Source: a bacterium (GTDB lineage Bacteria; Planctomycetota; Planctomycetia; Kolteriales; Kolteriaceae). Taken from it: a stretch of DNA of 64,000 nt. This document shows positions 47,885 through 53,086 of the stretch, piece by piece (position 1 is the first letter of the stretch; every line of letters starts with the position of its first letter). The stretch is from NCBI GenBank assembly GCA_019753235.1, contig JAIELF010000032.1, positions 62,001 through 126,000 of the forward strand, read 5' to 3'. The notes under the pieces were generated by a model. The model saw only the letters and a program-made list of their open reading frames with translations, had not been told where the DNA came from and ran no database searches. The translations under genes and the position numbers were made by a program.

Positions 47885-49615
47885 CTAAAGGAGCTTCTGC
47901 TTGGCACCGGTTTCTAAGCCGGAAGGCCGACGCCAATCCGCCCCGCCCGAACCACTGGCGGCAAACTTCAAGGCATCGGCCACTGACTCGCGAATTCGGT
48001 CCAGTCGAAATGGCTTGTACAAAACCGACGCGAGTCCCTCTTGTTTCGCACGCACAATGGAATGCGTCGCGTCATAACCGAAACCCGTCATCAGCACGAT
48101 CGGCGTCTTCGGGGCAATTTTCTTCATCGCGGAGAAAAACTCGTAGCCGTTCATGTCCGGCAACCGGATATCCCCCAGAATCACGTCCGCCTCGATCGTG
48201 CGAACCCACTGCTGTGCTTCCAAACCATCTTTCGCCGTATCGACCTCGCATCCGAGTTGCGAAAGGAGAACGTGGGCCGATCGCCGAATGTTGGGGTCGG
48301 CATCGACGACGAGAACTCGCTTCCCGGTGAGCCTGGTCGGTTGATCGGTCGGCCCACGAGAGGTCTCTTGCTCGACCTCTCGTCCAACTTTCTGGATAGC
48401 GCTCTTGATTGATCGGGCGCTCATCAAGATTCGCCTGACCGCTTCGTGCGCGAGGTCTTTGTTGCCGGCCGGCTGCAAAAGGAAATCGAGCACGCGAATC
48501 GTATCGGAGACGATCTCGTCGACCGGCAAACTGACTTCGTGGACGATCGCTTCGACCGTGGCCGTCCCACCGATTTGTTTTTCCGCCTCCAACAATTCAA
48601 GCGTGTGGAGCGCGACGGCGATTTCGCGGGCGAAGATCTCTAAAAACTCGCGATCGCTTTCGGTGAACTTGCCGGGATCGGTACTCTCGACATTGAAGGT
48701 ACCGATGACCCGGTCGCGGTAGAGAATCGGAACCGTAATCGAGCTTCGCGCGCCATCGGCGCCGGGAAGATAAAGAGGGTCGTGCACGACATCGACACAG
48801 ATGTAACTGGTGCCGGTGGCAGCAACAAACCCGGTCACGCCGTTCCCGTCGGTCGACGCCAGCAGTTCCCTTTTGCCGGCCGAATCACTCATCCCTTCCG
48901 AGAGGAGAATCTTGAGGTTCTTCGTCTCCGGTTCGAGAAGTCGAATTTCTAGAGAGCGGAAGTTCAATATGTTCTGCGAATGCTGCAGGATGTTCGCCTT
49001 GAGGAGATCGACCCGCTCTTCGGTCGACATCAAGGCGAGTTCGGCCGGCGTTAAGTGACCCAGTTCGAGACCCGCACGGTGAATCGAGGTCATCTTCTCG
49101 CGTTCTTGAATCTCGGAAGTGATGTCGCGACAAATGCTCAGCAGAACCTGTGGCAAAAGACGCTGCACGCGGATTTCGACATGTCGACCGTTCTTCAGTC
49201 GAATACGAGTCTTTGTCGAGACGTTTCCCGCGAGCGCCTCGGAGAAGGGACAGAAATCGGGACCGGTGATCTCTTCGCACGCGACGGCTTCATAGATTCC
49301 TTTGCCGACAAAGCCGTTCCCGCCACAAAGATCTCCAAACGCGACGTTGTGCCACATTACTTTCAAGGATCCATTGACGATCGCAATCCCGGTCGCAATC
49401 TGTTGCAAAATATCCGATGCTGACAGGGCGACGCCGGGGGCAACCAGGGTGGTGGTGGCCAATCCGTCTGCTTGTTGCAATTGAAGATGTTCGATGGCTG
49501 ATTCGACCGAATCGGTTCGAACGACGTCGGCATGGGGCGCCAGCATCTCCGCGAGAGCGGAAATCGATGGGTCTCCCTCAATGACCACGATCCGCGGACG
49601 TTCGTTCAACCCCAA
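47885..49615 (-). CDS. Receiver/PAS/GAF signalling protein with a DHp-like helix pair but no ATPase
   Basis: A 576-residue soluble protein. A degenerate receiver-like N-terminus (about 1-60) lacks the aspartate set. A PAS domain (about 66-170) and a GAF domain (about 200-345) follow, then a helical pair with AIVHEVSLPVDEIV that looks like a HisKA dimerisation/phospho-acceptor helix, and a C-terminal receiver (about 434-552) with DADPNIRRS, the Asp in ILGDIRLPDMNGY and VLYKPF. There is no HATPase domain, so it probably takes phosphate from another kinase. The start is TTG 49615 or 49609. TATAAT lies upstream at 49666-49671. Confidence 0.78.
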   Translation of the reverse strand: MGLNERPRIVVIEGDPSISALAEMLAPHADVVRTDSVESAIEHLQLQQADGLATTTLVAPGVALSASDILQQIATGIAIVNGSLKVMWHNVAFGDLCGGNGFVGKGIYEAVACEEITGPDFCPFSEALAGNVSTKTRIRLKNGRHVEIRVQRLLPQVLLSICRDITSEIQEREKMTSIHRAGLELGHLTPAELALMSTEERVDLLKANILQHSQNILNFRSLEIRLLEPETKNLKILLSEGMSDSAGKRELLASTDGNGVTGFVAATGTSYICVDVVHDPLYLPGADGARSSITVPILYRDRVIGTFNVESTDPGKFTESDREFLEIFAREIAVALHTLELLEAEKQIGGTATVEAIVHEVSLPVDEIVSDTIRVLDFLLQPAGNKDLAHEAVRRILMSARSIKSAIQKVGREVEQETSRGPTDQPTRLTGKRVLVVDADPNIRRSAHVLLSQLGCEVDTAKDGLEAQQWVRTIEADVILGDIRLPDMNGYEFFSAMKKIAPKTPIVLMTGFGYDATHSIVRAKQEGLASVLYKPFRLDRIRESVADALKFAASGSGGADWRRPSGLETGAKQKLL

Positions 49616-49754: not shown

Positions 49755-50729
49755 GTGAATAAGGTTTCAGAGGCAATTCTGAGGGGAGCGGTCAGCCTGG
49801 CTCGGCAAGTCACGGCCAAGTTCATTGTTTTTGATGCCGACGTTTTCGAAACGAGGAGCGAGTTGGACGAGGCTCTCGGGCTGACCGAGCACCCCGCGGT
49901 GGTCGCGGTCCGGGCCAAGTTCGCCACCGAGGGGATGAAATCTGACGCGGGGGGCGAAAGCCTTGAATCGGGAAAGATGATGGTCCGGTCCCCCGTCATC
50001 CGACTTTCCGTCCCCAACGTTCCCATGTCCCGCACGGGGCAGATCAAGGTGGTCGTACTGGTTGGCGTGGCAGAGCAGGTTTTCGGACGCGGCGATTTGA
50101 TCGTCTGCCTTTCGGGCGTACAGTCCTCGAATCGACTCGACATGATCACCCTCCTGAAGGTTGGCGACGATTCAGAATTCTTCCTTACGGATGAGCAGCA
50201 TCCGCTTCCCCCCGATGTCGACCCCAGCGTTTTCGAGAGAGTTCTCAGCATTGCGTCGGAGCTTGCCGTCGAAGGGCGAGAAAGCCGATCGGTGGGGGCT
50301 CTCTTTGTTCTGGGGGATTCCGATGCCGTCCTCGACAAATCTCGACAACTGATCATCAACCCGTTTCATGGATACCCCGAAGCCGACCGAAACATCCTCA
50401 CCGGGAGTTTGGACGAGACAATCAAAGAGTTCGCCAACATCGACGGCGCGTTCATCGTGCGTGGTGATGGCGTCGTGTTGGCCGCCGGTCGATATCTGAT
50501 GCCCCAAGGGAAGAGTTCAGAGTCGGTCCGAAGCGGGCTAGGGACTCGTCACGAGTCGGCCGCCGCCATCACGCGGGCCACCGACGCCGTCGCCGTCGTC
50601 CTGAGCCAAAGTACCTCGACGATCACCGTCTTTAACTCTGGACGAATCATGACGGAACTCGAAAGAATCAAGGGAAGCGCGGCTAGCCAGGGGCTTCGCT
50701 TCAAGCGCCTAGCGGACGGATCCGATTAA
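49755..50729 (+). CDS. Diadenylate cyclase (DAC/DisA_N domain), DNA-binding domain absent
   Basis: A 324-residue protein that should make cyclic di-AMP from two ATP. The N-terminal half (about 5-145) looks like a pyruvate-kinase C-terminal-like domain, as in archaeal cyclases. The C-terminal DAC domain has IDGAFIVRGDGV with the DGA motif (230-232) and GTRHESAAAITRATDAVAVV (263-282), where the usual RHR is RHE, as in archaeal-type enzymes. The helix-hairpin-helix domain of DisA is missing. The gene ends one base before ruvB, so the two are in one transcript. GTG 49755 is the start; AGGAG lies about 11 bases upstream. Confidence 0.86.
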   Translation: MNKVSEAILRGAVSLARQVTAKFIVFDADVFETRSELDEALGLTEHPAVVAVRAKFATEGMKSDAGGESLESGKMMVRSPVIRLSVPNVPMSRTGQIKVVVLVGVAEQVFGRGDLIVCLSGVQSSNRLDMITLLKVGDDSEFFLTDEQHPLPPDVDPSVFERVLSIASELAVEGRESRSVGALFVLGDSDAVLDKSRQLIINPFHGYPEADRNILTGSLDETIKEFANIDGAFIVRGDGVVLAAGRYLMPQGKSSESVRSGLGTRHESAAAITRATDAVAVVLSQSTSTITVFNSGRIMTELERIKGSAASQGLRFKRLADGSD

Positions 50730-50730
50730 A

Positions 50731-51804
50731 ATGGCTCGCGAGCGATTCCTCGGACCGCAGGACAGCGACGAACCTTCGGGGGAACCGACCGATATCGACC
50801 CAATCATGCCAGAGCCAAGGCAGGTCGATGAATCCCTTCGTCCCTCCCGTTTCGAGGAAGTGATCGGCCAGCGGGCGGTGGTCGAAAGGCTGCAAATCTC
50901 CGTCGATGCGGCCCGCAAAAGAAATGAACCCCTCCAGCATTTGCTTCTCGACGGCCCTCCTGGTCTGGGGAAGACAACGTTGGCGACGGTGCTGCCCAAA
51001 GAAATGGGGGTCGAGATCGTCATCGCCAGTGGCCCCACGCTCAAAGCCCCCAAGGACGTTCTTCCCTACCTGACCAACCTTGCCGAGCGATCGATTCTCT
51101 TCATTGATGAGATTCATCGGTTAGCGCCCCCCGTCGAAGAGTTCATCTACCCGGCCATGGAAGATTTCCGGATCGATATTGTCTTGGGGCAGGGGCTCGG
51201 CGCTCGCACTGTGAGCATGCGATTGAAACCCTTCACGCTGATCGGCGCAACGACCCGCTCGGGAAGCCTGACGGCGCCGCTCCGGGATCGATTTGTCATC
51301 CGCGAGCATCTCGACTTTTACACCGAAGAGGATCTGATCCGAATCCTCAGTATCAACGCCCGGAAGCTGAATCTCCCCATCGACGAGAACGCGAAAGAGG
51401 AACTCGCCAAGCGGAGTCGCGGGACACCGCGGATCGCCAATTCGCACCTCTACTGGATTCGAAACTTTGCGATTAGCCGAGGCGATGGACGAGCGACGAA
51501 AGCGATCGTCGATGAAGCCCTGGCGATGCTCGAGATCGATCCGATCGGGCTCGACCGACAAGATCGAAGATACTTAGAGACTCTCTTCCGCGTCTTCGGC
51601 GGGGGCCCGGCAGGGATTGAAGCCCTCGCCGCCACCATGAATCTCGCGTCGGAAACACTGGCCGACGAGGTCGAACCCTATCTTCTTCGCCGGGAATTGA
51701 TCATTCGAACCCCGCGAGGTCGTCAATTGACACCAGCCGGCCTGGACCATCTCGGTTTTAGTCCAGGCTCGTCCCCTCCCATGGGAAAACTCTTCGATAC
51801 GTAG
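50731..51804 (+). CDS. ruvB: Holliday junction branch migration ATPase RuvB
   Basis: RuvB hexamers drive RuvA-bound Holliday junctions in recombination repair. The 357-residue protein has RPSRFEEVIGQ, Walker A GPPGLGKT, Walker B ILFIDEIHRL, sensor I GATTRSG and the GGGPAGIEALAATMN segment. At the equivalent of the usual NRLLRRVRD it reads NSHLYWIRNFA, somewhat different from standard members. No ruvA or ruvC is visible here. The start is one base after the cyclase stop. Confidence 0.95.
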   Translation: MARERFLGPQDSDEPSGEPTDIDPIMPEPRQVDESLRPSRFEEVIGQRAVVERLQISVDAARKRNEPLQHLLLDGPPGLGKTTLATVLPKEMGVEIVIASGPTLKAPKDVLPYLTNLAERSILFIDEIHRLAPPVEEFIYPAMEDFRIDIVLGQGLGARTVSMRLKPFTLIGATTRSGSLTAPLRDRFVIREHLDFYTEEDLIRILSINARKLNLPIDENAKEELAKRSRGTPRIANSHLYWIRNFAISRGDGRATKAIVDEALAMLEIDPIGLDRQDRRYLETLFRVFGGGPAGIEALAATMNLASETLADEVEPYLLRRELIIRTPRGRQLTPAGLDHLGFSPGSSPPMGKLFDT

Positions 51805-52064: not shown

Positions 52065-52328
52065 GTGACTTGGCGGGAATATCAGACAAGAAGTAGCCTT
52101 CTCGACGCATCGCTCGAGGAGACGGTCCTCGGTCAGTTGCAAGGCCGACTGCTCGATTTTTCCGTCGAGCAGGAGGATGGGGAACTGGTCCTGAGAGGTC
52201 TGACTCACAGCTATCATGTCAAACAGCTTGCTCAGTGCGCGGTGATGAATCTGACCGATCAACCGATCCGCGAAAACTGCATTTCCGTCGAACCGAGCCG
52301 ACACCGGGGCTATGTCTCTCCCCGGTGA
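52065..52328 (+). CDS. Small BON-like hypothetical protein
   Basis: An 87-residue protein. The segment VEQEDGELVLRGLTHSYHVKQLAQCAVMN resembles a BON domain strand-helix-strand, a fold seen in phospholipid- or surface-binding proteins. There is no signal peptide. GTG 52065 has AGGAGG six bases before it. The end overlaps the convergent PEP-CTERM gene by 19 bases. Function is unknown. Confidence 0.6.
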   Translation: MTWREYQTRSSLLDASLEETVLGQLQGRLLDFSVEQEDGELVLRGLTHSYHVKQLAQCAVMNLTDQPIRENCISVEPSRHRGYVSPR

Positions 52329-53086
52329 CGTCGGTACCAAAGTCCGGTTCCCAGAAACAAACTGGCTGCGACAGCGCTCAACAGGAAAGTTGATGCTTCG
52401 GGAATGGCGGCCAAATGAATCTCCGGGATGATGCGGAGCAAGAACGGCGACAGAATAAACGTCCTTACCATAAAGTCCGGATTGCCGATGTTGAGCTCGG
52501 CTCTGGGAGAGAAAAGACCTGTCCCAGCATCGACCGATCCATCGACCCGGTCCAAAAGCGCACTGAGATTTACCGCCGACAGGTTTCCGGTGAAGTCGTA
52601 GAAGAAGCCTTGGGGATAGAGCGTCCCGATCGCACCTGCGGTATTGGTAATGTTGACCGAGCCTGCATTAATCCCGATACTCCCTGCCACACGGGCAGTT
52701 CCCGGCCCCAACGCGTAGGCGCTGTTGGTGGCAAGAATGTCGCCGGTTTGAAGCCCCAGCGTCAGCCCAAGGGACGTCAGCGTGAAGCTCCCCAATGGGC
52801 CCAAATCGACGGGAAAGTCGACCAGATCTTCGACTCGAAGATTCAGCGATGTTTGAAACGGACCGGTCTGTGTGGCATCGAAATTTGTTGTGAGCGTTCC
52901 ACCCCCATCGAAGGCGAGCCTTGGCGAGCGAAAGACGAGCAATCCGGAAGGGGGGAGGTCGCCCGCGTAGACCTCGATGATGCCGAAACTCGGGAGCGGA
53001 TGAGCCGATGTCGTCACGGTAAACGTGCTGCCGTGAATGTCGGCAACAAGAGCAAAGAGGAGCAAAAGAATTCCGATGGTTCTCAC
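52310..53086 (-). CDS. PEP-CTERM sorted exported protein
   Basis: A 258-residue protein with an N-terminal signal peptide (MRTIGILLLLFALVADIHGS) and a C-terminal sorting tail: IPEASTFLLSAVAASLFLG then YRRHR, the PEP-type motif, hydrophobic helix and basic end recognised by the exosortase EpsH/XrtA system. The middle has beta-rich segments with many Thr/Gly/Asn. The target is the envelope or extracellular matrix. GTG 53086 has AAGGA at good distance. No exosortase gene is in this window. Confidence 0.85.
   Translation of the reverse strand: MRTIGILLLLFALVADIHGSTFTVTTSAHPLPSFGIIEVYAGDLPPSGLLVFRSPRLAFDGGGTLTTNFDATQTGPFQTSLNLRVEDLVDFPVDLGPLGSFTLTSLGLTLGLQTGDILATNSAYALGPGTARVAGSIGINAGSVNITNTAGAIGTLYPQGFFYDFTGNLSAVNLSALLDRVDGSVDAGTGLFSPRAELNIGNPDFMVRTFILSPFLLRIIPEIHLAAIPEASTFLLSAVAASLFLGTGLWYRRHRGET

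Follow-up and report, generated by a model that had tools for sequence, protein, structure and literature searches.

Genomic context of a DacZ-type diadenylate cyclase gene located upstream of ruvB in Kolteriaceae

Described diadenylate cyclases and the cyclase of this locus

Diadenylate cyclases of the DacZ (or DacY-CdaZ) type, such as DacZ of Haloferax volcanii and CdaZ of M. jannaschii, have a DacZ_P-type domain at the N-terminus and, behind it, a DAC domain carrying the DGA motif; they have neither a DNA-binding nor a transmembrane domain. A pyruvate-kinase-C-like fold of the N-terminal domain has been reported for the DacZ family, planctomycete homologues appear in the family tree, DacZ of Haloferax volcanii is essential and linked to the osmotic response, and mscS2 is the neighbor of dacZ in halobacteria (PMC6741144). 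In Bacillus subtilis, the cyclase DisA binds RuvB in a two-hybrid assay even without its DNA-binding domain, and RuvAB together with junction DNA inhibits synthesis by DisA (PMC8583203). DR0007 of Deinococcus radiodurans (a DAC protein without a DNA-binding domain) is needed for full radiation resistance, and the DAC mutant repaired double-strand breaks and reassembled its genome at wild-type speed (PMC4401554).

The cyclase gene considered here is located at positions 49755..50729 (+ strand) of the window, i.e., the whole stretch of 64,000 nucleotides that was analyzed, which comes from a genome of the family Kolteriaceae in the class Planctomycetia. It was identified as a dacZ-type gene using Pfam, NCBIfam, motifs, and an AlphaFold model, starts with GTG (with GGAGA ten bases upstream), ends with TAA at 50727-50729, and encodes 324 amino acids. 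Pfam places DacZ_P ("Probable sensor domain", PF21755) at residues 6-143 (E 2.6e-10; 40.5 bits versus a cut-off of 27.4) and the DAC domain at residues 171-297 (E 2.4e-22), and finds neither a helix-hairpin-helix DNA-binding domain nor any other additional domain above cut-off. Both the DGA (residues 230-232) and GTRHESAAA (residues 263-271) motifs are present, and D230, G231, R265, and H266 are invariant across 44 aligned sequences. The AlphaFold model (mean pLDDT 82), built from 44 sequences, aligns with solved diadenylate cyclases across the DAC domain, and its match with DisA structures is limited to about 156 columns, which correspond to that domain. A preliminary description of this DNA had noted the DAC domain with these two motifs, the missing helix-hairpin-helix, a PK-like N-terminal domain, and a kinship with the archaeal DacZ class; all of these points hold, except that the N-terminal domain, which does exist, is DacZ_P according to Pfam.

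The haloarchaeal DacZ model (NF041371) is by far the top NCBIfam model for this protein. In contrast to haloarchaeal DacZ, the cyclase scores 122.7 bits, far under the equivalog cut-off of 430 bits, and has ruvB rather than mscS2 as its neighbor. Like Haloferax DacZ, it is the only DAC protein of its genome (no other exceeds the family cut-off), and it shares with the family the lack of DNA-binding and transmembrane domains. Judged by its domains and best-scoring model, it is a putative new member of the DacZ family. DisA of B. subtilis and mycobacteria has the DAC domain in common with it but differs in its helix-hairpin-helix domain and its N-terminal domain, and in the present cyclase the DAC domain is C-terminal. 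A DNA-repair gene as neighbor does not turn this cyclase into DisA.

The RHE in the second motif had been thought to recall archaeal-type cyclases. A tally of non-archaeal sequences covered loci of the class and their relatives from a wider survey. Of 81 DacZ-type loci in the class, 60 had W as the third residue, 15 had E, 3 had Q, 2 had L, and 1 had A; the wider survey gave E, I, A, M, L, N, and others at this position, with R in bacterial-type cyclases. RHE was rejected as an archaeal-type marker because the position varies freely both in the class and beyond it; it is a subgroup trait, found in Isosphaeraceae and Kolteriaceae, and unusable as an archaeal signature. Within the class Planctomycetia, cyclases of the DacZ type are near-universal. 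Isosphaeraceae-type genomes such as G410, G460, and G454 encode two or more of them, with RHE in one and RHW in another, and Kolteriaceae keep the RHE type only.

The adjoining ruvB gene and the distribution of the pairing

The downstream gene (50731..51804, + strand, ATG start) encodes a canonical RuvB of 357 amino acids with AAA+, lid, and C-terminal winged-helix domains, as identified by Pfam and NCBIfam. It scores 388 bits against TIGR00635 (cut-off 299), and its P-loop, lid, and winged-helix domains all exceed the curated cut-offs. A single A separates the stop codon of the cyclase from the start of ruvB, which confirms the one-base spacing noted earlier, and from this spacing we infer a cyclase-ruvB operon. 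RuvB is also the sole member of its family over the cut-off in the genome; a second ruvB or DAC gene that might account for the arrangement was considered and rejected, none being above the cut-off. Neither a ydaO-type c-di-AMP riboswitch nor any other Rfam RNA was found at the locus, even at E values up to 1, and a promoter and terminator scan of the locus gave hits no more numerous than in shuffled sequences.

The family was sampled by three genomes, each representing a separate genus: the window genome, G397, and G393, which is Kolteria novifilia Pan216 (CP036279). This strain, earlier known as "Planctomycetes bacterium Pan216", has been described under its present name (PMC12288469). In all three, ruvB lies behind the cyclase gene and has the same orientation, with gaps of 1 bp (window genome), 142 bp (G397), and 133 bp (Pan216). 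Elsewhere in the class, ruvB was beside none of 79 DacZ-type loci from 71 genomes, which were mostly examined with 5 kb flanks on each side (about ten were shortened by contig ends). A survey of 84,980 species of bacteria and archaea yielded the 80 DAC loci nearest to this one; ruvB adjoins the gene in two of them, which belong to the two other Kolteriaceae, and is absent from the other 78. Another 60 DAC loci, examined with 1.5 kb flanks and including bacterial-type cyclases from the phylum, have no ruvB beside them either. The adjacency, whose restriction to close relatives the preliminary description had listed among the points against its own proposal, is therefore kept only within Kolteriaceae, and a pairing confined to such a small family has the look of a local arrangement of genes and not of a new DNA-damage signaling system.

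The location of ruvA points to how this arrangement may have arisen. In 8 of 20 other genomes of the class, in which RuvA and RuvC were recognized by eye from clustered sequences, ruvB lies directly or closely behind ruvA, in some cases preceded by ruvC. In contrast to such ruvA-ruvB (ruvCAB) clusters, with which the locus shares a canonical RuvB, ruvB stands behind the cyclase gene in all three Kolteriaceae genomes, and ruvA is present but sits on a different contig or at a distant chromosomal site. Since ruvA-ruvB linkage is common in the class, ruvB seems to have left ruvA and settled behind the cyclase.

The explanation that we prefer, with a probability of roughly 70%, is that the cyclase is an ordinary housekeeping c-di-AMP synthase of the DacZ family and that ruvB joined it downstream once, in the ancestor of Kolteriaceae. 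As the predicted only diadenylate cyclase of the cell, the soluble protein would dimerize via its DAC domains and condense two ATP into c-di-AMP, with the DacZ_P domain probably setting the activity in response to some metabolite or ion, and the product would serve potassium, ion, and osmotic control. Proteins with TrkA_C (RCK_C) domains, a usual class of c-di-AMP receptor, are encoded in the genome and are candidate receptors by domain only. A 356-aa frame of the genome encodes a DHHA1 protein (also recognized by domain only), which presumably could degrade c-di-AMP. Once parted from ruvA, ruvB would have become the downstream neighbor of the cyclase in a single event; in the window genome the two genes are probably co-transcribed and the translation of ruvB is probably coupled to that of the cyclase, so that ruvB may gain from the transcription unit or just share it. 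RuvB itself would remain an ordinary branch-migration motor working with RuvA encoded elsewhere, presumably without direct contact with the cyclase.

Neighbors of related cyclases in other lineages

In the protein tree of DAC sequences, Kolteriaceae adjoin the Isosphaeraceae-type cyclases (94/89 support), whose loci have a different gene directly upstream of DAC. This gene encodes an exported protein of about 600-700 amino acids with no Pfam match, overlaps the DAC gene by four bases in several genomes, and was found as one cluster in 22 of the 80 nearest DAC loci (e.g., L153:7383-9164 and L135:5849-7738), Pan216 among them. Elsewhere in the window genome only a marginal partial match was detected (E 3e-5), and the gene appears to have been lost in the window genome and G397, both of which are incomplete assemblies. 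The exported protein is likely the older operon partner of the cyclase in Isosphaeraceae and Kolteria.

In Thermodesulfobacteriota and neighboring groups, the same type of DAC gene lies between a divergent rpoH and clpB, often followed by htpX. Among the 80 nearest DAC loci, clpB is beside DAC in 25 and rpoH in 24, and the gap between DAC and clpB is often about 10 bp (L246:5016-9487 and about 25 related loci, examples being L249, L250, L252, L256, L259, L265-L268, L273-L276, L279-L281, L283, L284, and L290). The position of DAC in a heat-shock gene cluster is conserved far more widely than its pairing with ruvB, and a full-text literature search found no paper describing DAC in an rpoH/clpB cluster. 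In Fibrobacterota, the DAC frame is longer (465-492 amino acids) and has a gene for a PlsB-like acyltransferase immediately upstream (L240, L241, L242, L244, and L262). These differing neighbors imply that the partners of DAC are lineage-specific, and a useful outcome is that those of DacZ-type cyclases vary by lineage among ruvB, the exported protein with a GAF-REC regulator (see below), clpB, and the acyltransferase.

Linkage within Kolteriaceae and possible roles of the pairing

A divergently oriented gene for a GAF-REC hybrid regulator (47885..49615, - strand) adjoins the DAC block in all three Kolteriaceae genomes, and in Pan216 the exported-protein gene sits between the two. Synteny beyond the locus was examined by one DNA search, which compared a 20-kb part of the window with Pan216; matches were scattered over the chromosome, and the only multi-gene block comprised GAF-REC, DAC, and ruvB; this block was also checked at the protein level. 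In G397, a closer relative of the window genome than Pan216, additional neighbors are retained too. That the block was kept in Pan216 while its surroundings were scattered argues against pure inertia, and its retention across the three genera hints at some selection for linkage, an argument based on a single pair of genomes and a single event in the ancestor.

The linkage might be a matter of expression only: the cyclase, ruvB, and the divergent GAF-REC gene would be co-expressed, and a single stress signal would increase c-di-AMP together with recombination capacity, with no contact between the cyclase and RuvB. The conserved block and the one-base gap in the window genome are consistent with this idea, as is the finding that a cyclase without a DNA-binding domain can affect radiation survival (DR0007, PMC4401554). 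However, the gaps of 133-142 bp in the other two Kolteriaceae genomes leave room for a separate promoter, ruvA is outside the block, promoter and terminator signals at the locus are not above chance, and the Deinococcus DAC mutant mends double-strand breaks as fast as the wild type (PMC4401554), and we regard this explanation as unlikely.

The preliminary description proposed a split DisA-like system in which RuvB may sense junctions. Junction-bound RuvB would alter c-di-AMP synthesis, or the cyclase would restrain branch migration, with c-di-AMP reporting recombination status. Adjacency in three genera and the block retained in Pan216 despite scattered flanks would fit such a system, and so would the behavior of B. 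subtilis DisA, whose binding of RuvB does not require its DNA-binding domain and whose synthesis is inhibited by RuvAB plus junction DNA (PMC8583203); by this analogy, contact of a DAC protein with RuvB is possible in principle, although nothing in the present analysis points to contact between the present pair. The adjacency was not found beyond Kolteriaceae in the loci surveyed, DAC genes of this type are close to other genes in other lineages, and the DacZ_P domain points to small-molecule sensing. In addition, comparison of RuvB from Kolteriaceae with 18 other RuvB sequences revealed a single family-private residue, which gives no sign of a remodeled surface, and family-specific residues were accordingly rejected as the mark of a new interface. 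Taken together, these findings speak against a split DisA-like system, which we consider very improbable. It is equally doubtful, at a probability just below one in ten, that in Kolteriaceae-type planctomycetes the DacZ-type cyclase and RuvB work together as a pair, with c-di-AMP synthesis being modulated by RuvB or by junctions bound to it; if true, c-di-AMP and recombination would be linked a second time, by an independent evolutionary route that dispenses with the DNA-binding domain of DisA. The cultivated Kolteria novifilia Pan216 carries the same pairing, and DAC-RuvB contact is directly testable there.

The GAF-REC gene is linked to DAC as firmly as ruvB is, and the regulator is possibly a functional partner of the cyclase. 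At least seven Isosphaeraceae-type loci have an orthologue of it (41-46% identity) no more than about 6 kb away from DAC, and on this comparison of loci the linkage of DAC with GAF-REC is older than that with ruvB. Downstream of ruvB, at 52310-53086 (- strand) of the window, a small exported protein has a PEP-CTERM-like tail (PEASTFLLSAVAASLFLGTGLWYRRHR, judged by eye).
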